A program made the translations under genes and the position numbers. 50,079 nt of DNA from an uncultured Bacilli bacterium (GTDB lineage Bacteria > Bacillota_I > Bacilli_A > RF39 > UBA660): positions 1-50,079 of the forward strand of contig CASTSB010000010.1 in the NCBI GenBank assembly GCA_949451605.1, read 5' to 3'. The notes below the pieces were generated by a model. That model saw only the letters and a program-made list of their open reading frames with translations, was not told the origin of the DNA and made no database searches. Below are positions 123 through 50,079 of this stretch, piece by piece; position 1 is the stretch's first letter, and each line of letters begins with the position of its first letter.

Positions 123-2942
123 TTAATTTCCTAAAGTTATTTCAAAAGGTGAATCAATAGTTCCCTCTCCACTTACTATTTTTGTGTTAGCTTTTAAGTT
201 GATTACTGGACGGATACCTCTTGAATTTGAAATTTGGGTACTTGTAATATAACCATTACTATAATGATAATTATGACTAGTTCCAGAGGTACTATTATAG
301 TTAGGAGTCATAGTCCAATAAGAACCGGAATCTGAATATAAATAAAATAAGTTATTTGCGTTTGAGGAATCATTTATGCCTCCTGCAAAAGAAAGCTCAT
401 CTGCAGTAAGGGTAGCTATTTTGTAATCTAAGGCTCCATTTCCATTAACAGTATCGGCTTCAGTAAATCTATCATTTTGATTAGTACATGTAAGTTGTGG
501 TGTACGACTTCCAATTCTTCTGTTTGCATCATAATAAATTGTACCACTGAAAGGATTAAAGCCATTTCCAGAATTCAATCTTCTATCATTACAAAATATG
601 CCATCTGCTAAATAATCAGATAATAAATTATTTGAAGAGTCTCTTTGATCTTTTATGTTAGTTTCATACCATTCATCTATTCTTTGTAATAATATAGATT
701 TATATTTGTTTTGTACTGCTTCTTCATAAGAAGATGAAGCTGTCATTATTCTTTTATAAAAATAATTATGTTGATCATATTTTTCGTTATACGAATATCT
801 AGTTAACTGCATAAGAATTCTGCATTGTGCAGTTGCAGAAGTATTCATACATGTGTATATATACCCTTCATTTAAGATTTGTTCATGATCTTTTTCCCAA
901 ATACCTGTCATAAAATTTCCATCTTCAATATTTAGAGAAAACTTCTTTGTTGCAGGATCGTAAGTATAACCTCTTGAAAAATAATAATTATAAGTGCTTC
1001 CACTACCAAAGGCACTATTAGTTTCTCCTCTTTCTAATGGAGTTTCATCAAAATCATCATTATATTTTAATCCAACATATGTTGGGTCATAATTTTGAAT
1101 ATTGAAATTAGTGGTTGTAATGCTTTCATATTTACTAGGAGAAGTACCATAATAAATCATTCTGATTGTTCCGTCTCCATTTATTCTCATTATTTTCCAG
1201 TAGTAATTTCCAAATTTTACAATATTTCCTTCTACTGCTCCTCTATAGTAATAACTTGTTCCTAAATCATCTTCAGTTGCATAAATACCTGTTTCTTTTG
1301 AATCATACCCGATTGATTTTTTATTAATAGTATATTTTAATAAACTATATTTTTGGGATATTGTTGTATAGAAACTATACTCTTTTCTTGTTTCTTCTAT
1401 AAAATCTGCGGAAATTATTTTATAAAGAGATGTACATACAGAATTATTAGAATTATTACATACATAATAATTATTATTTTGGTAATCTAGTTCTTCAAAA
1501 TCATAAGTGTTTTTTATATTTTTAAGATTGAAATAACCTGTTTTTGGGTCAATTGTATATCCGTCCCCTACTTTATAGTAAGAAGATGAATATCTTGTTC
1601 CATCACTATTAAAATTTGATATTGAGGTTGTTAAGGCTATAGTTGTTGATTTTGCATCTTCTTTGTCACCAAATTCTATTTGTGGACTCATTTTTGAAAA
1701 ACTTGGTTGTTCTTTTGATTCTATTTTTGTTTTAGCTTGAACTATATTAGAGTCTCTTGCTTCTTGTCCTAAAAGACAGTCGCCTAGTGTAGTAAGATTA
1801 TTTTTCTTACACCAATCTCCATTTCTGATTGTTGATGTTTTAGCTTGAACTGCTGACTTATTCCCTGCGACATCTTCCGTATAGAATGTTATAAAGTAGT
1901 CGTCATTATCAAGTCCTGTAAATGTATAATTTGGATAGATACTTGGTATATATGTTTCTCCTGAATCTTTTGAGTAATAATACATATAAATTCCTGACTG
2001 TTTATCTTCGGCATCTACTTCTACTGTGATAGAATTGGTTTCTTTTGTTAGATTAACATTTTTGATTATTGGATCTTCTCCATCTACTAGATAGCTTTCT
2101 GTTGTACATGTTGTTTTGGTATTATCATTGGTATCAGTTGCTTTTACACATAGTCTTTGTTCAGTATCTGACTCTGGAAATGTAAAGTAAAATGAAGTGT
2201 TTTGTAACTCTTCAGGAGTTTGGTCAGGCTCGCACTCATTATCTGGTGTTGTGATACAATACTTGGCTTCTTTTATTTTTGATTCATCTACTATTTTTAC
2301 TAATAGTCTTATATCTTTACTCCACTCATCATTTCCAGAGTTATCATTTACTTTAATAAATTTAATTCTTGGTGGAGTTACATCAGCGATATGTTCTCTT
2401 TCTCTAGCATTTTCATCTGCTTGGTCAAAGTTGACTTCTAAAGATAAGTTAAAGTCACTCTTAGTTGAAGGTAAATCAGATACTTCTATATCTTCTCTAA
2501 ACTTAACTCTTACTTTTAAAGTATCAAAGGAGTTTTCTTTTAATATGTCATATTTATTAACTTCTACTCCATCATTATAAGTTAGAGTTGTAGAGATAAG
2601 TTTTTCTTGTTCTGTTGTAAGACCTGAAAACAAATAGTTATTTAACATAACATCAATAGTTCCATCATTTACAACATCCACATAAAAGTAATACTCATCT
2701 CCTGGGTTATTTAGAGTTACTTCAAAGTTTACTGATAACCTGTCACGACTAATTGAGGCTGGAATATCAATAACAGCTTTTTCATAATCATCTACTATAT
2801 TTTCAAAGTGAAGATCCCAAACACTTCTTTTCATAATAGAAATACCATTGATTTCTAAGTTAGTAGATAAAAAGGCATAACCAATCCCTATAAATAATAC
2901 TACTAATAATAAACTAAATTTTTTCAATCTATTTTTCTTCAT
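123..2942 (-). CDS. large secreted/anchored surface protein with Ig-like and disulfide-rich C-terminal domains
   Basis: A 939-residue exported protein; no enzyme motif is seen. Residues 1-28 are a basic N-terminus plus one hydrophobic segment ending near GYAFLSTNLEI, the style of signal found in TasA/camelysin-type proteins. Residues about 30-185 look like a beta-rich camelysin-like domain. Residues about 190-370 hold two Ig-like modules with the 'DxTPPxI' and 'DVAGNKS' wording of bacterial Ig domains. Residue 375 on is a Cys-rich domain (WCKKNN..GDCLL; YYVCNNSNNSVC; YTCMNTSATAQC; FCNDRR) ending in IRPVINLKANTKIVSG and FEITLGN. The same C-terminal domain ends the gene at the right edge, so the two are paralogues. 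No LPXTG motif is present, so anchoring would be by the N-terminal segment if it is uncleaved. It starts 13 nt after murI and may be cotranscribed with it. Function unknown; adhesion is only a guess. Confidence 0.85.
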   Translation of the reverse strand: MKKNRLKKFSLLLVVLFIGIGYAFLSTNLEINGISIMKRSVWDLHFENIVDDYEKAVIDIPASISRDRLSVNFEVTLNNPGDEYYFYVDVVNDGTIDVMLNNYLFSGLTTEQEKLISTTLTYNDGVEVNKYDILKENSFDTLKVRVKFREDIEVSDLPSTKSDFNLSLEVNFDQADENAREREHIADVTPPRIKFIKVNDNSGNDEWSKDIRLLVKIVDESKIKEAKYCITTPDNECEPDQTPEELQNTSFYFTFPESDTEQRLCVKATDTNDNTKTTCTTESYLVDGEDPIIKNVNLTKETNSITVEVDAEDKQSGIYMYYYSKDSGETYIPSIYPNYTFTGLDNDDYFITFYTEDVAGNKSAVQAKTSTIRNGDWCKKNNLTTLGDCLLGQEARDSNIVQAKTKIESKEQPSFSKMSPQIEFGDKEDAKSTTIALTTSISNFNSDGTRYSSSYYKVGDGYTIDPKTGYFNLKNIKNTYDFEELDYQNNNYYVCNNSNNSVCTSLYKIISADFIEETRKEYSFYTTISQKYSLLKYTINKKSIGYDSKETGIYATEDDLGTSYYYRGAVEGNIVKFGNYYWKIMRINGDGTIRMIYYGTSPSKYESITTTNFNIQNYDPTYVGLKYNDDFDETPLERGETNSAFGSGSTYNYYFSRGYTYDPATKKFSLNIEDGNFMTGIWEKDHEQILNEGYIYTCMNTSATAQCRILMQLTRYSYNEKYDQHNYFYKRIMTASSSYEEAVQNKYKSILLQRIDEWYETNIKDQRDSSNNLLSDYLADGIFCNDRRLNSGNGFNPFSGTIYYDANRRIGSRTPQLTCTNQNDRFTEADTVNGNGALDYKIATLTADELSFAGGINDSSNANNLFYLYSDSGSYWTMTPNYNSTSGTSHNYHYSNGYITSTQISNSRGIRPVINLKANTKIVSGEGTIDSPFEITLGN

Positions 2943-7049: not shown

Positions 7050-7705
7050 GATAATCTATATCCAAATCCATAAATAGAATTTAAATTTAGTTTTGGCATT
7101 TTTTTTCGTATTCTTCTCACAAGATCATCTACCACCCTATCTGAGCCAAAATAATCATCTCCCCAAACGGATTGTAGGATTTCTTCTCTTTTAAAGCATT
7201 TATCTTTATTTTCTAAAAAAAGTAAGAGTAAGTCAAATTCCAAGGTTGTAATCTTTAATTCTTTATTATTATCATATACTTTTCTTTTTTCTATATCTAT
7301 TATGTAATTTTCATATTCTATTTTATTAGTTAATTTATCTTTATAAACTCTTTTGATAATATTATTTACTCGTAATACTAATTCTTTAGAAGAATATGGC
7401 TTTGTAATATAGTCATCACTTCCAAGTTCAAGTCCTAAAATTTTATCTAGGTCTTGATCTCTTGCAGATGTAAATATAACTGGTACTTCTTCATCTGTTT
7501 TTCTGATTTCTTTAATGATGTCATATCCAGATATATCGTCTCCTAACATTATATCTAATATCCATATATCTACTTTATTTCCAATATAGTTAATTGCATC
7601 TTGTCCTTTAGTAAAACAAATAATATTATATCCTGCTTTTTCTAGGTAAGTTTTTATCAAATTAGATAAATCAATTTCATCTTCTACAAAACATATTGTG
7701 TACAT
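7046..7705 (-). CDS. OmpR/PhoB-type response regulator
   Basis: A cytoplasmic DNA-binding regulator. The receiver domain (1-115) has acidic residues at 8-10 (VEDE), phospho-acceptor Asp51 (ILDIMLGDD), Thr/Ser at 79-80 and Lys102 (TKPYS). The C-terminal winged helix (about 130-219) ends in the typical GDDYFGSDRVVDDLVRRIR and YGFGYRLS. I start at the ATG at 7705, preceded by AGGTGAT with 4 nt spacing. The three-codon-longer reading uses the GTG of that ribosome site. The stop is TGA, one of only two I found among the intact genes here, dictated by the ATGA overlap with the kinase. Confidence 0.96.
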   Translation of the reverse strand: MYTICFVEDEIDLSNLIKTYLEKAGYNIICFTKGQDAINYIGNKVDIWILDIMLGDDISGYDIIKEIRKTDEEVPVIFTSARDQDLDKILGLELGSDDYITKPYSSKELVLRVNNIIKRVYKDKLTNKIEYENYIIDIEKRKVYDNNKELKITTLEFDLLLLFLENKDKCFKREEILQSVWGDDYFGSDRVVDDLVRRIRKKMPKLNLNSIYGFGYRLS

Positions 7706-10555: not shown

Positions 10556-11410
10556 ATGAAAAAAAGAATAATTTTATTTTTATTAATAATATTACTTTTA
10601 TTTATTTACTTAAATTCTAATTTCTTAGTAAAAAATATTTTAGATTATACAGAAACTTTTATAAAAAACTTATTTCCCTATACATTTATTGTATTTACAT
10701 TGAGCAGTCTATTAGTTGATTATGATTTACTTAGCATTTTAGAGCCAAAATACTACATAACTATTATGAGTCTAATCAGTGGATTTCCAAGTGGAGCAAA
10801 ATATACTGCTGAATTATTAGAAAAAAACTTTATTGATAAAGATACATCTAATTATTTAATAACTTATACCCACTATCCAAATCCTCTTTTTATACTTGGA
10901 GCTGTTTCATCAATTATTACAAAAAATCTCGCAATAAAACTTCTTTTCTCTATATATTTAGCAAGCTTTATTACAAGTAGATTTTTTAAAGTAAAATCAT
11001 CAAAAAAAATAACTTCAAGTAATTATAATAATGTAAATTTTACTAAATCTTTATCAAGCTCTATAAACGGGGCGTTTAAAACACTAATTTTAATTTATGG
11101 TACTAGTATTTTTTCAATTATTATTGCTTTAATAATTACTCATAGTTTTAATTTGAATGGTATTTGTTATTCTTTAATTAATGGGATTTTTGATCTTACA
11201 AAAGGTATTTTTTCTACCGTCATAATAAATAATAAAAGAATAAGAGCTATTCTTATTCTTGTTTTCATTAATCTAGCAAGTATCAGTATTCATATGCAGG
11301 TTAAAAGTATTCTAGATAATACTGAAATTAAATATTCCAACTTTTTAAAAGGAAGAATAATTTCTACATTACTTGCGGTTATTATTTTTATAATTATTAC
11401 TGGTAATTAA
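10556..11410 (+). CDS. YlbJ-like multispan membrane protein (nucleoside-recognition/gate domain)
   Basis: A 284-residue polytopic membrane protein. The segment SLISGFPSGAKYTAELL (about 73-89), followed by YTHYPNPLFILGAVSS (about 103-118), matches the gate motif of YlbJ, a sporulation integral membrane protein in Bacillus (SGYPxGAK..TAEL..NNASPLFxxGAV in the family). It is shorter than Bacillus YlbJ (about 400 aa), mainly at the C-terminal half. AAGGAG lies 5 nt before the ATG. The 3' end overlaps the convergent prepilin gene by 14 nt. Whether it serves sporulation, or only transport or morphogenesis, cannot be told from the sequence. The ylbJ-ylbL neighbourhood supports the assignment. Confidence 0.75.
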   Translation: MKKRIILFLLIILLLFIYLNSNFLVKNILDYTETFIKNLFPYTFIVFTLSSLLVDYDLLSILEPKYYITIMSLISGFPSGAKYTAELLEKNFIDKDTSNYLITYTHYPNPLFILGAVSSIITKNLAIKLLFSIYLASFITSRFFKVKSSKKITSSNYNNVNFTKSLSSSINGAFKTLILIYGTSIFSIIIALIITHSFNLNGICYSLINGIFDLTKGIFSTVIINNKRIRAILILVFINLASISIHMQVKSILDNTEIKYSNFLKGRIISTLLAVIIFIIITGN

Positions 11411-11966
11411 TTGGACATACTATGTTTATTCCATATTTAGTTGATAGTCTTTGATGTTGAAATCCTAAGAACAAACTAAATACATTATTCTCAGTTTTAA
11501 CAATAACATTTGTAAGTCTAAGATCTTTTACCATTTTTCCTGCTTTATTATATGAAAATCCAAAGTCTGGAATTGGATATTCTACATTATTATATTTTAC
11601 ACTAAAATAATCATCATAATTTCTTGATGGAGCTGTTTCCAAGACATCATCTGTAAGTCGTCTTTTAATTTCTAAATATTTTTGATCACCATTTTTTAAG
11701 GTAAATCTAATTTTAAACTCATCTGTATTACTGGTAAGATTCTCTTCTTTTGAAACATTAAGCAAGCCTTTTTTTATTAAATCATCTTGGATTTCTTTTG
11801 TAAGTAAATTTTTATAAGTATTTAATTCTAGTTTGTATGACTCAATTTCTCTTCTAGTTGCGTAATTTGATACTGTTGTATAAATAGTGGAAGAAATAAC
11901 TGCAACAATAACGAAGCTTACTAGTATTTCTACTGTAGTCATTCCTTTTTTATTTAATCTTTTCAT
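11397..11966 (-). CDS. prepilin-like (minor pseudopilin) protein
   Basis: 189 residues. A short basic leader ends in KKG, then MTTVEILVSFVIVAVISS, a type IV prepilin signature (cleavage after Gly8, Glu at +5, hydrophobic helix). The body has a long alpha-helix and a beta-rich C-terminus (IRFTLKNGDQKYLEIKRRL), recalling ComGF/PilW-like minor pseudopilins. It is translationally coupled to the upstream prepilin-like gene (stop and start overlap, TAATG). The pair is divergent from the PilB-type ATPase, so a role in the same pilus or pseudopilus is likely. The exact minor-pilin class is not certain. Confidence 0.8.
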   Translation of the reverse strand: MKRLNKKGMTTVEILVSFVIVAVISSTIYTTVSNYATRREIESYKLELNTYKNLLTKEIQDDLIKKGLLNVSKEENLTSNTDEFKIRFTLKNGDQKYLEIKRRLTDDVLETAPSRNYDDYFSVKYNNVEYPIPDFGFSYNKAGKMVKDLRLTNVIVKTENNVFSLFLGFQHQRLSTKYGINIVCPINYQ

Positions 11967-12625
11967 TATTTCTTCACCTCGATTGTGGCGTATGAATTGT
12001 AATCTTCTTCATCAACTATATAGGAATTTGCATCTCCCTCTACATCTGGCGTGTCAAATCTATGTCTATAATATTCGATTATAATTCTGTATTTTGCTTG
12101 GTTTAAAGAAAGGGCCTTTTCATATGTTGGAAGATAGTGAACATATTCTTGTAAAGCAGATGAAAATTTATTATTTCTATTTTCCTTTACTATACTTTTA
12201 AAATCTGTTAAATTGTATGCTGTTATAAATATATGTGGCTGTGGGCTATCTCCACCTAATGAACATTTTTCGATTTTGTTTTTTGTATCAACTTTGTCGC
12301 AATTTACTTCTAAGCTTACTAATAGTTGTCTACACATTTTTTGCTTTTCCAAATCGTTTATATCTCCACATTTAAATTCAACATACTTATTAGAATCTAT
12401 GGTATCTTTATCTAATTTATAAGAATTATGTTGAATAAATCTTTTTATCCAGTATGTCCCATACTTCGAATCAATATCGTCATAATCTTCACGACGTGTA
12501 TATTCACCCATTAAAGGATAGAAATGTTTAAATATTATAGCAAATATTGCGGCTACTGCGACTGCTACAATCATTGTCTCTACAAGGACAAATCCTTTGT
12601 TATTAAGGCTTTTAATTTTTTTCAT
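11966..12625 (-). CDS. prepilin-like (minor pseudopilin) protein
   Basis: 219 residues. The leader MKKIKSLNNKG is followed by FVLVETMIVAVAVAAIFAII, a prepilin methylation-type signature with Glu at +5. The globular part is Cys-containing (FKCGDINDLEKQKMC, VNCD, EKCSLGG), so extracytoplasmic disulfides are likely. An in-frame TAA lies two codons before the ATG, fixing the start. It is the first gene of a two-gene unit divergent from the ATPase gene at 12721. The family is recognised only through its N-terminus; the rest is unlike anything I can name. Confidence 0.8.
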   Translation of the reverse strand: MKKIKSLNNKGFVLVETMIVAVAVAAIFAIIFKHFYPLMGEYTRREDYDDIDSKYGTYWIKRFIQHNSYKLDKDTIDSNKYVEFKCGDINDLEKQKMCRQLLVSLEVNCDKVDTKNKIEKCSLGGDSPQPHIFITAYNLTDFKSIVKENRNNKFSSALQEYVHYLPTYEKALSLNQAKYRIIIEYYRHRFDTPDVEGDANSYIVDEEDYNSYATIEVKK

Positions 12626-12644
12626 TTTTTATTGTACACCATCC

Positions 12645-12673
12645 TTGATATTATTCTAAAATTATTATATAAT
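12645..12673 (+). promoter_or_regulatory. sigma-A promoter of the PilB-type ATPase gene
   Basis: TTGATA (12645-12650), a 17-nt spacer and TATAAT (12668-12673) give a near-consensus promoter, about 48 bp before the ATG. The AT-rich -10 block (TTATTATATAATAA) is nearly palindromic and could also serve the divergent prepilin genes. Confidence 0.8.
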
Positions 12674-12720
12674 AAATTAGAGTAAAATTCCATAGAAAGT
12701 AAACAAAAGGGGTTGAAACA

Positions 12721-14382
12721 ATGGAACAAGTTGATAGTAAGGCTAAAGATAATTTTAAAGTATCTTTTGATTTTGTAAAAACTCCAATCACTCAGATTGC
12801 AGATTATGTTATTATAGCTGCATCTAAGCATAATGCTTCAGATATTCATTTTGATCCGCGTGAAAATGGTATGGTAATTCGCTTCCGTATGGATGGTGAT
12901 TTACAAGATTATACATTTATTCCAAAAGCTTATGAAAGAAATTTAACTACTCGTTTAAAACTTTTGGCTAACATGAATATTACTGAATCTCGTCTTCCAC
13001 AAGATGGTGCAATTAAAGGAATGTTTGGAGATACATATTTGGATATGCGTGTATCTTGTCTTCCTTTAAACGAAGGTGAAAAAATCGTTATTCGTATTTT
13101 GGATTATACAAGAAGTTTACAAGGAATTGATAGTTTAGGATTTCACCCAAAAAATCTTGTTAAATTAGAGAGAATGATGGAAGCTCCTAATGGTATCATT
13201 TTAGTTACTGGTGCTACTGGTTCTGGTAAATCTACTACTACATATTCAATATTACAGGGACTTAACAAACCAGAGACAAATATAATTACTGTTGAAGACC
13301 CAATAGAAATGAATATTCAAGGTATAAATCAAGTACAAGTTAATGCTGAAATTGGAATGACTTTTGCGGCTGCTCTTCGTTCTATTTTACGTCAAGACCC
13401 TAACGTTATTCTTATCGGAGAAATTCGTGACTCTGAAACTGCTCAGATTGCTGTTCGTTCTGCCATTACTGGACACTTAGTTTTATCTACTATCCACACC
13501 AATAACTCTTTATCTACTATTGAACGTTTAATGGATATGGATGTTGAGAGATATTTATTGTCTACTGCTCTTACAGGAATCATTTCTCAAAGACTTGCTA
13601 AACAGTTATGTCCTAAATGTAGATTTCAACGTAAGACTACTCCTTATGAGAAAAAGATTTTTAGAAATTTTATGAAGTTGGATGTTAATACAATTTGGGA
13701 AGCTGACGAGGACGGATGCGAAAATTGTCGTAAAGGTTTTAAAGGTCGTATTGCTATTCAGGAAGTACTTGAACTTGATGATGAGATAAGAGCTGCTCTT
13801 ACAATAGAAGATCTTACAAAAGATGAATTAAGAGACATGGTTTATACAGATAAAACAATAACTCTTTTACAAGATGCTTTAATAAAATGTTTGGAAGGTT
13901 TTACAAACTTTGAAGAAGTTTATAGAGTTATTGAAATGGAAAATGATGACGGTGATGATTATAAGTCTGAATTAACTGCTGCTATTAGAGAAGCAAGACA
14001 AGCACTTAATTTGGATCCTACTCCTCCTGGAACTACTATTAATACTTCTAATGTTACTATTAAGGTTGATCAAGCTTTACCAAATGTAGTTGATAATCTT
14101 CAAGGTGATTCTGTGGAAGATGGTACTGAACGTGATGATGGTGTTGATACTGATATCCCAGTACTAGAAGAAATTCCAAGACTTAGTGATGAAGTTGAAG
14201 TACTTGATGAAGATAATGAAGATAATATTTTAGAAGAACAAGAAAAAATCATCCAAGAAGAAAATGAAAAATATGAAAAGGAACAACAAAATGATGATGT
14301 AGTTAGCATTAGTTTGAATGAAGATGTACATGAGCATAATGATGACATTGCTTCAGGAGTAATTGAAATTCCAAAATTTTAA
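12721..14382 (+). CDS. type IV pilus/type II secretion assembly ATPase (PilB/GspE/ComGA family) with acidic tail
   Basis: A hexameric motor that would drive pilus or pseudopilus assembly. In order: N2 domain (20-130), Walker A GATGSGKST (164-172), Asp box ITVEDPIE (189-196), Walker B ILIGEIRDSET (230-240), His box GHLVLSTIHTN (251-261), and the zinc tetracysteine CPKC (297-300) with CENC (333-336). It lacks the long N1 domain of PilB, as ComGA does, but ComGA usually lacks the tetracysteine, so this is closer to GspE/PilB. The catalytic core ends near residue 404. Residues 405-553 are an extra, very acidic, Pro/Thr-poor tail without a recognised domain. AAAGGGG precedes the ATG. It is transcribed away from two prepilin genes. 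Confidence 0.93.
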   Translation: MEQVDSKAKDNFKVSFDFVKTPITQIADYVIIAASKHNASDIHFDPRENGMVIRFRMDGDLQDYTFIPKAYERNLTTRLKLLANMNITESRLPQDGAIKGMFGDTYLDMRVSCLPLNEGEKIVIRILDYTRSLQGIDSLGFHPKNLVKLERMMEAPNGIILVTGATGSGKSTTTYSILQGLNKPETNIITVEDPIEMNIQGINQVQVNAEIGMTFAAALRSILRQDPNVILIGEIRDSETAQIAVRSAITGHLVLSTIHTNNSLSTIERLMDMDVERYLLSTALTGIISQRLAKQLCPKCRFQRKTTPYEKKIFRNFMKLDVNTIWEADEDGCENCRKGFKGRIAIQEVLELDDEIRAALTIEDLTKDELRDMVYTDKTITLLQDALIKCLEGFTNFEEVYRVIEMENDDGDDYKSELTAAIREARQALNLDPTPPGTTINTSNVTIKVDQALPNVVDNLQGDSVEDGTERDDGVDTDIPVLEEIPRLSDEVEVLDEDNEDNILEEQEKIIQEENEKYEKEQQNDDVVSISLNEDVHEHNDDIASGVIEIPKF

Positions 14383-30494: not shown

Positions 30495-31088
30495 TTATTT
30501 CAAAGTGCATAATGTCATTCCGCTAGATACTGTAACTGAACCAGGTTTACTTGCAAGTTTTGGAGATACTTTTGATCTAGTTATAGAATCTTCAGCTACT
30601 GCTCCATAAATGTTAGAAGAATTATAACCACCTGTTTGTACGTTTAATAGACCGTGATTATTCTTATCCCATAATGCTGCATAATATGAAGTTTTCATTT
30701 GAGAACCAGAGCTTGTTTTTTTCCATACAATGTACCCGTAAACATCACCATTTCCCCAAGCAGATTTTCCACCTTTTTCCATTAAGTCTATAGTTTGTTG
30801 TTTATATGTTCCTCCACCAAACTCACTTCCTGTAGATATTGGAAAATAATAAGTTCCTTCTCCTAATGCTGAAGCGTCTGTTCCTCCACATGCAATATTA
30901 TCAGCTAAAACTTCATTTCTAACTTGGTTTAAATATGATTTAGCTGTATTCATAAATGTATCTCTTCTTGAATTTTCAATAACTCTTGATACTGATGGAA
31001 TAGCTACCATCATTAAAATTCCCATGATTGTAATAACTGCAAGCAATTCGATTAATGTAAATCCTGCTTGATTTAATTTTCTTTTCAT
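30495..31088 (-). CDS. type IV prepilin, possible major pilin
   Basis: 197 residues. MKRKLNQAG is followed by FTLIELLAVITIMGILMMVA: prepilin cleavage after Gly9, Glu at +5. The globular head has two cysteines far apart (IACGG near 66 and MTLCTLK at the C-terminus), the D-region disulfide arrangement of type IV pilins. Tyr/Gly-rich loops lie between. I start at the ATG at 31088 with AGAGAG upstream; a GTG four codons earlier is possible. It lies 105 bp after a second prepilin gene on the same strand, and its strong terminator ends the unit. Confidence 0.88.
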   Translation of the reverse strand: MKRKLNQAGFTLIELLAVITIMGILMMVAIPSVSRVIENSRRDTFMNTAKSYLNQVRNEVLADNIACGGTDASALGEGTYYFPISTGSEFGGGTYKQQTIDLMEKGGKSAWGNGDVYGYIVWKKTSSGSQMKTSYYAALWDKNNHGLLNVQTGGYNSSNIYGAVAEDSITRSKVSPKLASKPGSVTVSSGMTLCTLK

Positions 31089-31193
31089 TTTATTTTTCAC
31101 TCTCTTTCTTCTATTATTATTACATTTTAAATATAGCACATGCTTTTTTAGTTTTCAATATCTAAATTAATTATTTACATTTTAGTTGTAAAT

Positions 31194-31775
31194 TTATGAA
31201 ACATAACGATCAGTGATGTTGTTTATTGCTCCACCCTTTGTAGTAACTGTCATAGTAGTACTATTTACTTTAGATAGTTGGCTTAAACTATTATAATTTA
31301 TAATACTACTTGAATTAATCCCTTTTACTGGCTGTGCTTTAATCCCTCTATAAGAATATATATCATTTCCAGCAGAATCTTTCTTACCTGACGGATACTT
31401 TTCTATCAATTGAACATAATATTCATATTTTCCACCATTATTTTTAATAACTACAAATGAATACATAGTGTCTTCCCCATGCATATACTCGCCTTTTTTG
31501 CTTTGATATGGAGAGTTTTTAAACTCACTAGTTCCTAGATAATCCATGCTCATTACTATACTTTTTGTATTAGCTGGCCTTTTAACATTACTATCACTTC
31601 TTAGTCTGTACTCAGCAAGAGTTGCTAGTTTTTTAGCATCCTCAATATAGGTATTGTTTCTTGAGCTTTCTACTATACCTATAATATTTGGAGCTGCTAT
31701 GGCTGTTAATAAGCCTAATATTACTAATGATGCAAGTAATTCTACTAATGTAAATCCTTTTTTATTTTTTTTCAT
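31194..31775 (-). CDS. type IV prepilin
   Basis: 193 residues. MKKNKKG is followed by FTLVELLASLVILGLLTAIA (cleavage after Gly7, Glu at +5). The head is Ser/Thr/Tyr-rich and has no cysteine, unlike its neighbour. The conserved APNIIGIVESSRNNTYIEDA at the helix end parallels IPSVSRVIENSRRDTFMNTA in the neighbour, so the two are paralogues. The start follows AAGGTGAA. Probably cotranscribed with the next prepilin. Machinery genes are not adjacent. Confidence 0.88.
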   Translation of the reverse strand: MKKNKKGFTLVELLASLVILGLLTAIAAPNIIGIVESSRNNTYIEDAKKLATLAEYRLRSDSNVKRPANTKSIVMSMDYLGTSEFKNSPYQSKKGEYMHGEDTMYSFVVIKNNGGKYEYYVQLIEKYPSGKKDSAGNDIYSYRGIKAQPVKGINSSSIINYNSLSQLSKVNSTTMTVTTKGGAINNITDRYVS

Positions 31776-41244: not shown

Positions 41245-41916
41245 CTAATTTGGATTTGTAGAAAAAGTAAATTCAACGTCACCAAACTCTACATCAAATG
41301 GACCATCTGCATATACTCCATTATTTGTATAAGAAATCTCTACTCCTAAATATAAATATGAGTCTTTAGCTATTAATTTATTCGTCGAATTATTTGTAGA
41401 TCCGTGTAAGCCTGTACTATCAGAATATTGAAAATCTATAATAATATTTTTGCATGTTTCTTGTACTAGAGAGTCTGTTGTTCCTTCTTTGGCAGTACAT
41501 TTTACTTTTGATGATGTTGACTGAATATTGTTAACTATTCCTTTTTTCCAATATACATCAAGCATACCTTTATTATGAACATAAAAATTGTATCTAGCAC
41601 TTCTCCCTGCTCCTATAAAATTAACCTTAATGCCAGAAATTGTATATCCATTACCACTTTTTGTAATAATGGCATCAGTTGCCGTAAGAGGCTTTTGTTG
41701 AGAATTTCCTAAGTACCAATATGTAGGGCTAATCGAATTAACTGGTGTAGGATCACTAGAAGAGGTAGAAATAATTAAATTCATATTATCTTCATTTCCT
41801 TCTACTGTTAAGCCAGATCTAATATTAAGTGAACTAGAAAAAGTTGCAAGACCTATTGAAACTGTCGCTACTCCTAAAACTAAAATAAGTATAATAATTA
41901 TTCTTTTATCTTTCAT
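41245..41916 (-). CDS. secreted TasA/camelysin-like protein
   Basis: 223 residues. A positively charged start plus a hydrophobic segment (5-24) ends ATVSIGLATFSSSLNIRSGLTVEG, a signal style of the TasA/CalY (camelysin) group, which is usually cut by SipW-type signal peptidase. The mature part is predicted beta-rich, with one Cys pair (VKCTAKEG.. and ETCKN) and the phrase ARYNFYVHNKGMLDVYWKKG, resembling the 'N-G-x-x' beta-sandwich of that fold. Family membership is by pattern only. The start follows GGTGAT. It stands alone. A matrix-fibre or surface-layer role would be inference. Confidence 0.6.
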   Translation of the reverse strand: MKDKRIIIILILVLGVATVSIGLATFSSSLNIRSGLTVEGNEDNMNLIISTSSSDPTPVNSISPTYWYLGNSQQKPLTATDAIITKSGNGYTISGIKVNFIGAGRSARYNFYVHNKGMLDVYWKKGIVNNIQSTSSKVKCTAKEGTTDSLVQETCKNIIIDFQYSDSTGLHGSTNNSTNKLIAKDSYLYLGVEISYTNNGVYADGPFDVEFGDVEFTFSTNPN

Positions 41917-48328: not shown

Positions 48329-50079
48329 TTATCCTAAAGTTATTTCAAATGGGGAATCTGGAGTACCATTACCACTTACTATCTTTGTATTAGCTTTTAA
48401 ATTAATTACTGGTCTTATCATTGAACTATTATGTACATATGTGTTGCTAAGGCTTCCATCACTAGCAATAATATATATCCCTGCCCCATTACTGTAGCTA
48501 TAATTTTGTGGACTCATTGTGTAGAAAGAACGAGTTCCATATGATAAATAGAAGAGTTTATTAGTATAATTACCTATATAAGTACCTGCTAATAGTGCTT
48601 CATCGGATGTTATAAGTCCAATTGGGTTTGACAAAGCTCCATTTCCATTGGATTTTGACACAGTAAATTTATCATTATCTAGTGTGCAAATTAAACTAGG
48701 GCTTTTCGTATTGACTCTTGAATAACTTTTATAATAGGTAGTTTTATTAAATGCATCAAAACCGTCTCCAGTATGCAACTCACGGTCATTGCAAAATATG
48801 TTGTCGGCAAGGTATGTAGAAAGTAAATTGCCATTACTATCTTGTTGATCCTTTATATTACCTTCATACCAAGTATTTAACTCTTTTAAGGCATTTGATT
48901 CATCAATATTTTTTATAGCATTTTCGTATGAAGTAGATACATAGTTCATGTATACATATTTTTTTGAGTGAATTAGATTAGTTTCAGTTGGAGCTGTATA
49001 GCCAGTGATTTTTTGTATTCTTTGACATGTAGAACTGATATTAGATGAATCACATGTATATAAGTACCTTTCATTTAATACTTGATCATGGATATCAGCC
49101 CAGGCACCATTAATTATATTACCTTCTGTCTGATCTAGGCTAAATAAACCTGTCTCTTGATTATAATTATAGTTCTTTGAATAATATACTTTGCTATAAC
49201 TTGCTAAAGAATTATATCCTGTTGACTTTTCTGTACTTTCTTGAATTTCAGTGTTAAAACCTGATTTATTGTTTTTAATTCCAACGTAAGTTGGGTCATA
49301 TGCTAAAGTATTAAATACTTTACTTCCTCCATAATATGTTACTTGATCAATAGTAGATCCATAATGAATCATTCTTATAGTTCCGTCACCATTTATTCTT
49401 ATTACTTTCCAATAAGCATTTCCAAATTTTACAATATTTCCTGATACAACACCTCTATAGTAATAACTTGTTCCTTGATTGTCTTCAGCGGCATGTATTC
49501 CCGAATCATCTGATATGTAGCCAACTACTTTAGGATCTAAATCATACTTTAAGAAGGAATATTTATTCTTTATTGAAGTAATGTTCTCAGAATTAGTACT
49601 TTCTGAGGATAATCTATTTCCCGATACAATCTTATATAATTTTTTGCAAGAACTACTTCCATAACTATTAGCACAAATATAATAAGTATTATTTTCAAAA
49701 TCAAATGTATTCTCTCTTGCGTAAGTATAACTTCCACCTGTTATAGAGAAATACCCTGTATCTTTATTAAATGTATATCCAGTCCCCATATAAGTATAAG
49801 AAGATGAGTACAAAGAGCCTGTATTTTTATAATACGATGATGTATCAGTTATTTCTACCATACTTGCCTTGGCTGATTCTGTCTCTTCATAAGAAGTTGC
49901 TGGACTAGCATTATTTATTACAACTGGTGCTTTATTATTAATTTTAACTTTAGCTTGTGATAGGTTTGCAGTTCTTGCTTCACTTGTAAGTAAACAATCT
50001 CCTAGCTTTGTTATTCCATTATTCTTACACCAATTATTAGTTCTTATTATGTCTGTTTTGGCATCTACTGCTGATGTGT
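48329..50079 (-). CDS. large surface protein, paralogue of the gene at 123-2942 (5' end outside window)
   Basis: The frame is open to the right edge, so this is a partial gene of at least 583 codons; the internal ATG at 49861 is not the start. Upstream of it the frame reads ..RTNNWCKNNGITKLGDCLL.., matching RNGDWCKKNNLTTLGDCLL of the left-edge protein. The rest follows the same plan: YYICANSYGSSSC, YYYRGVVSGNIVKFGNAYW, RINGDGTIRMIHYG, YLYTCDSSNISSTC, NIFCNDRELHTGDGFDAF, and the end IRPVINLKANTKIVSG..SPFEITLG. Cysteine positions are conserved between the two, pointing to extracytoplasmic disulfides. Function unknown. Confidence 0.88.
   Translation of the reverse strand, partial: TSAVDAKTDIIRTNNWCKNNGITKLGDCLLTSEARTANLSQAKVKINNKAPVVINNASPATSYEETESAKASMVEITDTSSYYKNTGSLYSSSYTYMGTGYTFNKDTGYFSITGGSYTYARENTFDFENNTYYICANSYGSSSCKKLYKIVSGNRLSSESTNSENITSIKNKYSFLKYDLDPKVVGYISDDSGIHAAEDNQGTSYYYRGVVSGNIVKFGNAYWKVIRINGDGTIRMIHYGSTIDQVTYYGGSKVFNTLAYDPTYVGIKNNKSGFNTEIQESTEKSTGYNSLASYSKVYYSKNYNYNQETGLFSLDQTEGNIINGAWADIHDQVLNERYLYTCDSSNISSTCQRIQKITGYTAPTETNLIHSKKYVYMNYVSTSYENAIKNIDESNALKELNTWYEGNIKDQQDSNGNLLSTYLADNIFCNDRELHTGDGFDAFNKTTYYKSYSRVNTKSPSLICTLDNDKFTVSKSNGNGALSNPIGLITSDEALLAGTYIGNYTNKLFYLSYGTRSFYTMSPQNYSYSNGAGIYIIASDGSLSNTYVHNSSMIRPVINLKANTKIVSGNGTPDSPFEITLG

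Follow-up and report, generated by a model that had tools for sequence, protein, structure and literature searches.

A dispersed family of putative stalked surface proteins with a near-constant N-terminal part and a divergent DUF6273-like tip in uncultured Bacilli

Introduction

DUF6273 has been described as a C-type-lectin-like domain (PMC10743442). In target proteins of Faecalibacterium prophages the variable regions map to the DUF6273 C-terminus (PMC11792537), and in an IgA peptidase residues 31–322 have been named a DUF6273 domain (PMC12402451). Targets of cellular diversity-generating retroelements (DGRs) are modular with a lectin-like C-terminus, and intragenic recombination has been suggested to join domains to it (PMC8144416). 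Open-licence literature on DUF6273 dealt with phages, IgA peptidases and Filifactor proteomics, and open-licence literature joining diversity-generating retroelement, gene conversion and paralog offered general review-type coverage only.

Here we describe a family of bacterial genes whose predicted C-terminal tip resembles this domain. The stretch of DNA analysed, called the window in the following, is the complete contig C10 of 50,079 bases. The genome to which it belongs has 22 contigs with 1,328,449 bases in total and is about 95% complete.

Results

Two genes of the window share a long C-terminal region

The complete gene P0001 and the gene P0002, which is open at the window edge, that is at the contig end, lie on the same strand (Table 1). 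A preliminary description had paired them by a long common C-terminal region with common cysteine positions, a RINGDGTIRMI core, common last residues and near-identical 3' DNA, and alignment bore out every one of these observations. A single BLASTP comparison gave 267/590 identities (45%, E 8e-159) and covered P0001 residues 363–938, corresponding to a common region of about 577 residues. Cysteines 378, 389, 495, 503, 698, 707, 784 and 819 of P0001 are identical in P0002 (8/8), as is RINGDGTIRMI, and the final ~29 residues are nearly identical. On the DNA level the 17-mer CCTAAAGTTATTTCAAA is present at the 3' ends of both genes, and a repeat search detected direct repeats of 229 nt (73%) and 102 nt (78%) between them. 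By these alignments the resemblance is far beyond chance.

The wording of that description needs correction in two places. "Giant" is too strong for a protein of 939 aa, and what stands of "disulfide-rich" is the set of eight common cysteines rather than direct proof of disulfides. In copy L002 both members of one cysteine pair are lost together, as expected of a disulfide. The 13 codons of a further gene at the left contig end may, judged by their translation, belong to another family member.

Recent transfer of the two genes was rejected, as their G+C content of 0.283 and 0.290 falls within the window range of 0.237–0.309. Site-specific inversion was rejected as well, since no recombinase was noticed by eye among those neighbouring ORFs that are longer than 180 aa or matched a family. 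By eye, the family genes sit among housekeeping-like genes.

Table 1. Position of the family genes and their parts in the window
Feature	Position	Strand	Basis
P0001, complete family member, 939 aa, stalk and tip	123..2942	-	ORF and translation; 13 family matches in genome
Hydrophobic N-terminus of P0001, signal peptide or membrane anchor, residues 1–26 (approximate)	2865..2942	-	sequence by eye
N-domain of P0001, residues 27–187, beta-rich by sequence	2382..2864	-	A3 profile, alignment A6 (30 sequences)
Two Ig/FN3-like domains of P0001, residues 188–372	1827..2381	-	model and structure comparison
Tip of P0001, DUF6273-like C-domain, residues 373–939	126..1826	-	model and 9qa6 comparison
Conserved tip core block of P0001, residues 561–599, holds RINGDGTIRMI	1146..1262	-	copy alignment
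Segment of P0001, residues 879–913, aligned with L082 retroelement variable region	204..308	-	alignment A4
Conserved tail of P0001, residues 910–939	126..215	-	amino-acid identity 0.89, nucleotide identity 0.81, eight copies
P0002, second member, 582 aa, 5' part cut by contig end	48329..50077	-	ORF and translation
Core block of P0002	49358..49474	-	BLASTP alignment, repeat D2
Part of P0002 that aligns with the retroelement variable region in relatives	48407..48514	-	alignments
Start of a further gene (13 codons), truncated at the left contig end	1..39	-	translation MKKKKYLVVLLLV

The family is multi-copy in the genome and present throughout the genus

At E ≤ 0.001, P0002 used as query found 13 matches in its own 1.33-Mb genome. 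Nine are long: two each on C10 and C8 and one each on C11, C3, C4, C14 and C1. The C-terminal regions of the long copies are 36–47% identical to that of P0002, and that of the C11 copy 77%. A complete long 5' part was found in three of the nine (P0001, C3 and C4), which lie at separate loci. L009 (C8:40942-42513) has merely a short hydrophobic N-terminus ahead of the C-domain, and five copies (on C10, C11, C14, C8 and C1) are cut off by a contig end close to where the common region starts. A scan for the terminal domain revealed copies in all six genus genomes (E ≤ 1e-10) and in further relatives. The "expandable surface family" of the preliminary description therefore holds in its multi-copy part (13 matches, nine long), while surface exposure is something we infer.

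All five broken copies stop at 55-nt stretches common to another copy. The first 55 nt of P0002 equal the C11 copy, with divergence after that. Taken as pairs, L001/L002, L006/L008 and L007/L005 have exactly 55 nt in common at the contig break and then diverge. Since the five copies, P0002 included, end in this way, their 5' part was probably collapsed in assembly; we infer an assembler with k = 55 that merged identical upstream sequence, which would be expected to leave this pattern.

Short-stalk tip proteins of 566 and 592 aa (L227:1940-3637 and L223:1932-3707) are encoded in the own genome and in the sister species G003. The gene adjoins several small secreted-looking proteins. Because the gene order is similar in both genomes, the short-stalk protein may be an older, stable member.

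The tip has the predicted fold of a DUF6273 domain

The C-domain of P0001, for which a structure prediction had been proposed, gave a confident fold: AlphaFold2 with 29 sequences returned a mean pLDDT of 89.4 and a pTM of 0.84 for residues 363–939, modelled for P0001 alone. Comparison with residues 32–306 of 9qa6, the Thomasclavelia ramosa IgA peptidase, resulted in Z 13.3, with an rmsd of 3.5 over 201 aligned residues and 17% identity. The next-best fold match, a CTLD2 fragment of the human mannose receptor (6ino), reached Z 3.6 with 98 aligned residues. With Z 13.3 against 3.6 the tip is predicted to have the fold of the solved DUF6273 domain.

Sequence searches gave fainter signals. Pfam DUF6273 (PF19789) scored 22.3 bits on P0001 residues 857–917, against a cut-off of 23.5, a scan of P0002 gave no match, and five of 29 aligned relatives matched at E ≤ 0.1. 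As P0001 stays below the cut-off and P0002 is without a match, we name the tip DUF6273-like and not a Pfam member. Among viral models, a siphovirus DUF6273 protein matches the tip best (E 8.9e-4). Foldseek found no match of the tip model in the PDB at E ≤ 0.001, one search of solved-structure sequences with the C-domain returned no match and another just E 0.59, and a PHROGs search with P0001 gave nothing. No peptidase domain was detected in a Pfam scan of the window proteins.

By eye, two similar Cys-hairpin stretches were seen in P0001 at about residues 446–546 and 654–735, before and inside the tip core; some relatives are without one or the other.

The stalk belongs to a large N-domain family

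In the model of the N-terminal part of P0001, residues 1–187 have pLDDT values below 50, including a helix at 3–23; good quality is reached only at about residue 188 and beyond. The two Ig/FN3-like domains show pLDDT values of about 73–96 by blocks of ten and a best Z of 11.9 to solved beta-sandwich domains. NCBIfam gave a sub-threshold OmpL47-type match to the Ig-like stretch and nothing else. Solved-structure sequence searches with the N-terminal part reached a best E of 0.79, besides a titin match at E 0.007 over 44 positions.

The N-domain family is large in the genus: the A3 profile matched in five of six genomes (12, 40, 14, 0, 27 and 19 matches at E ≤ 1e-10). Ten N-domain proteins were compared with Pfam; four carry DUF285 leucine-rich repeats, two Laminin_G_3 and two the Listeria-Bacteroides repeat. 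Nothing was found in the last two, one of which carries the tip according to the A4 profile. The occurrence of the N-domain with varied C-terminal parts fits a constant stalk with changing ends. A gene of the sister species G001 lies, like P0001, beside a gene that we read as glutamate-racemase-like, with residues 1–200 common at 47.5%. BLASTP did not match it to the tip at E ≤ 1e-3; it holds a short SYW...GVRP stretch seen by eye, so that it possibly carries a shorter relative of the tip. The N-domain may resemble TasA/camelysin fibre proteins. Peptidase_M73 (PF12389) matched 2/30 N-domain members with a best E of 0.0014, the window's own member not being among them.

Elsewhere in the window, the product of 41245–41916 (223 aa, hydrophobic N-terminus) looks by eye like the N-domain proteins and has no Pfam match; the equivalent neighbourhood of G005 contains N-domain proteins of 733, 775 and 737 aa. 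Type IV pilin-like genes are located at 30495–31775 (two N_methyl matches in Pfam), and pilin-like and assembly-ATPase-like genes were noticed by eye at 11397–14382.

The 5' part is nearly constant and the 3' part diverged

We compared the three intact long copies along their length. Their first ~380 residues are 93–95% identical, and on the DNA level identity amounts to 87–93% in the 5' 1.1 kb and 63–65% in the 3' 1.7 kb. In windows of 150 nt, DNA identity is 84–100% where the window begins within the first ~300 codons, and in most cases 47–83% past codon ~350. The preliminary description had proposed that 5' Ig-like parts are swapped in front of a shared C-terminal region. We find the opposite polarity, as the 93–95% of the 5' part compare with 36–47% (77% for the C11 copy) of the C-terminal regions. 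What is left for swapping is that the C-domain also stands behind other N-terminal parts, in L009 of the own genome and in L077–L081, but with the 5' part being the constant half in the long copies this model is contradicted for the three intact ones and hardly credible for the family.

Substitution rates show the same asymmetry. Between the own copies the 5' halves have dN 0.03–0.05 and dS 0.26–0.68, the 3' halves dN 0.38–0.42 and dS 1.03–1.41. Control orthologues with the same order of parts (L082/L083/L086) have dN 0.15–0.22 in the 5' and 0.13–0.19 in the 3' half, and P0001 compared with L082 and L083 gives 0.70–0.76 in the 5' and 0.65–0.67 in the 3' half. As the halves of orthologues evolve at similar rates, the asymmetry of the own copies calls for a homogenised 5' part or a diversified tip, or for the two together, and the constancy of the 5' part is not easily put down to stronger intrinsic constraint. 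In the relative E01__bin10 the copies L080/L081/L084 point in the same direction (5' dN 0.01–0.03 versus 3' 0.17–0.20); among L077/L078/L079/L150 the asymmetry is weak or absent (0.04–0.12 versus 0.11–0.17).

Identical sites were further examined for clustering. P0001 and the C4 copy have an identical run of 416 nt, with 0/5000 permutations as extreme. In the other two intact pairs identical sites were not clustered, as 0.91 and 0.84 of the permutations were equally extreme. Since 5' dS is 0.66–0.68 in two of the three pairs and their identity is unclustered, recent conversion is shown for one pair only. These two pairs, together with the low 5' dN/dS, are what would be expected of plain duplication and divergence, in which, in this lineage, strong purifying selection acts on the stalk while selection on the tip is relaxed or positive, and gene conversion plays no regular part. 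Yet the similar dN in both halves of the orthologues, a 5' dS lower than the 3' dS, the 416-nt run in one pair and the common 55-nt ends argue against it, and we regard plain divergence as a rather unlikely account of the whole pattern.

Conservation within the tip and signs of a mosaic

Identities of tip segments were calculated as means over eight copies, leaving out L009. Residues 561–600, the core block, reach an amino-acid identity of 0.86, residues 421–560 and 601–770 only 0.40–0.41. The lowest value of the eight segments tested, 0.35, was obtained for residues 874–909. This least conserved segment is the one that aligns with the retroelement variable region of relatives; the differences between the own copies are spread over the whole tip. 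NNY codons make up 0.60–0.77 of the variable-region segment versus 0.53–0.56, a weak excess that may come from composition.

A check for recombination breakpoints, suggested by the preliminary description, had a divided outcome. MaxChi returned p ≤ 1/300 in 23/168 non-independent triplets, with many breakpoints at codons 555–654 near the core block, but AU tests did not uphold a breakpoint, as they did not reject one and the same tree for both sides (p 0.06–0.33). Shuffling within the tip is only suggested by these alignments.

Silent-cassette antigenic variation works with promoterless donor copies and an expressed locus. Applied to this family, the five copies without a 5' part would be promoterless 3' cassettes that recombine into expressed loci via the conserved 5' edge, the core block and the tail. 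The MaxChi signals, conserved blocks flanking variable stretches and the lack of a 5' part in 5/9 long copies of the assembly would agree with such a system. However, all five copies end at contig ends at common 55-nt stretches, which looks like assembly collapse, three complete copies exist at separate loci, and the AU tests do not reject a single tree. Silent cassettes are therefore quite improbable here.

In some relatives the tip is associated with retroelements

Relatives were taken from the best 80 of 183 matching stretches of a contig scan. These correspond to 79 distinct loci in 26 genomes, all of which were searched; their record titles name uncultured Bacilli, Tenericutes, Mycoplasmatota, Mollicutes, Erysipelotrichaceae, Candidatus Ventrenecus or simply bacterium. 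RVT_1 matched in 22 of the 26 genomes and not in the other four. In 35 loci examined, 17 ORFs from 16/26 genomes have an IGN.[ST]SQ motif together with Y.DD (two are fragments of 87 and 167 aa), a combination that we take to mark retroelement-type reverse transcriptases. Four further ORFs show the motif of other reverse transcriptases.

One case is L082. Its reverse transcriptase carries IGNETSQ and YMDD, and the closest solved chain is 8ub7, "Reverse transcriptase" (E 2.6e-27), presumably the Bordetella phage enzyme. A bAvd protein is encoded beside it (44.9 bits versus a cut-off of 40), and 11/11 mismatches of the template-variable pair are located at A. The variable region at 7466–7572 lies at the C-terminus of the target, whose gene ends near 7641. 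L082 thus unites the parts by which a DGR is recognised: a DGR-type reverse transcriptase, an accessory protein, an adenine-specific template-variable pair and a C-terminal variable region.

As adenine-specific we counted pairs of at least 60 columns and at least 10 mismatches, at least 85% of them at a template A, in the loci searched. Such pairs occur in 7/26 genomes (11/11, 14/14, 12/12, 19/19, 21/22, 21/22 and 18/20 at A for the best pairs), and the same test for C, G and T was positive in 0/26. For the other 19 relatives no clean pair was found in the loci searched, a count that refers to these loci and not to whole genomes. E01__bin10, the closest relative by C-domain, stays under the threshold with 19/26 mismatches at A (0.73), and the L086 pair has 7/13. 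The variable stretch runs up to the motif G[VI]RP or something very similar, at a place where differences between the own copies are likewise greatest. To judge from these sequences, the tip is the target of a DGR in some related Bacilli.

Several loci have arrays of template-like repeats beside the reverse transcriptase (L082:7762-8396, L181:3264-3971, L184:2130-4223 and L198:2287-3439), among them two identical 110-nt copies in L181 (3264–3373 and 3433–3542). Each repeat of an array may belong to another target gene. Two target genes of the assembly BRZ_FL__bin29, L082:4765-7655 and L092:4765-7655, lie on separate contigs and are 99.93% identical over 2,891 nt. Identity sets in at about codon 24 and extends slightly beyond the stop codon, while the first codons and the flanks differ, suggesting a conversion or duplication tract that covers the gene almost exactly. 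In L086:7463-7584 the frame of the target gene is broken inside the variable region, and downstream the tip continues in another frame.

No such retroelement was found in the window's genus

RVT_1 matched in none of the six genus genomes; the same profile family was found in 3/14 control genomes. The reverse transcriptase of L082 as query gave 0/6 as well, in a search without a positive control of its own. As the genus genomes are 68–95% complete, absence of the enzyme is likely and not proven. In the loci searched of the own genome and five genus members, an adenine pair at ≥ 0.85 was found in 0/6, the best own value being 20/36. When the last 438 nt of P0001 were compared with the own genome, only the known copies matched and no template-like copy.

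An active retroelement might still be present here if reverse transcriptase and template lay in an unassembled or unbinned part of the genome. Completeness of about 95% would leave room for it, and 69/117 genomes of the wider family exceed the RVT_1 cut-off, although this does not distinguish the type of reverse transcriptase. Against it stand the negative RVT_1 result in all six genomes, the missing template-like copy, the low adenine fraction and the differences of the own copies that extend over the whole tip. We consider a hidden retroelement very improbable.

Discussion

The reading we favour, and hold to be fairly probable, is that these genes encode multi-copy stalked recognition proteins or adhesins, in which a near-constant N-terminal stalk presents a diverged, C-type-lectin-like tip of the DUF6273 fold. 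A hydrophobic signal or anchor, the ~160-residue domain and the two Ig/FN3-like domains would form a secreted or membrane-anchored stalk that exposes the tip at the cell surface, where the lectin-like tip could bind ligands on host or bacterial surfaces. Recombination would keep the stalks alike while the tips diverge as a standing repertoire, and this repertoire of paralogues would stand in for mutagenesis by a retroelement. More tentatively, and as a possibility we would not press, the genus may have lost, or never gained, the retroelement that hypermutates the tip in its relatives, and may use about nine dispersed genes with a repeatedly homogenised stalk as a standing repertoire instead.

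If this is true, neighbouring lineages provide a natural comparison of two ways to diversify one binding scaffold, error-prone reverse transcription of a patch of ~110 bp versus divergence of paralogues behind a homogenised stalk. It would also give phage DUF6273 targets and a gut IgA peptidase a counterpart in a cellular surface family of small-genome Bacilli, and make ligand searches concrete.

The fold is known already as a phage retroelement target (PMC10743442, PMC11792537), and cellular targets of modular build with a lectin-like C-terminus have been described (PMC8144416). The present case differs in being a dispersed cellular family whose stalk stays constant and whose tip diverges, in a genus that yielded no reverse transcriptase. 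With phage DGR targets, the tentaclins and those of Faecalibacterium prophages, the tip of the window shares the predicted fold, and its least conserved segment lies at the end to which the Faecalibacterium variable regions map; those are phage proteins diversified by retroelements, whereas the genes of the window are bacterial and long-stalked, and the search for a reverse transcriptase gave no match. In Thomasclavelia ramosa the IgA peptidase carries DUF6273 at the N-terminus of a metallopeptidase, in contrast to the C-terminal tip described here, which is 17% identical. L082 of the uncultured Bacilli bacterium BRZ_FL__bin29 shows the same order of parts, with a C-domain 33% identical and an N-terminal part matched by the A3 profile, but has the reverse transcriptase, bAvd and adenine-specific pair, none of which were found in the window's genus. 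Cellular DGR targets are likewise modular with the lectin-like part at the C-terminus; their C-terminal regions are reported to be more conserved than the rest (PMC8144416), whereas in the family described here the C-terminal half is the less conserved one.
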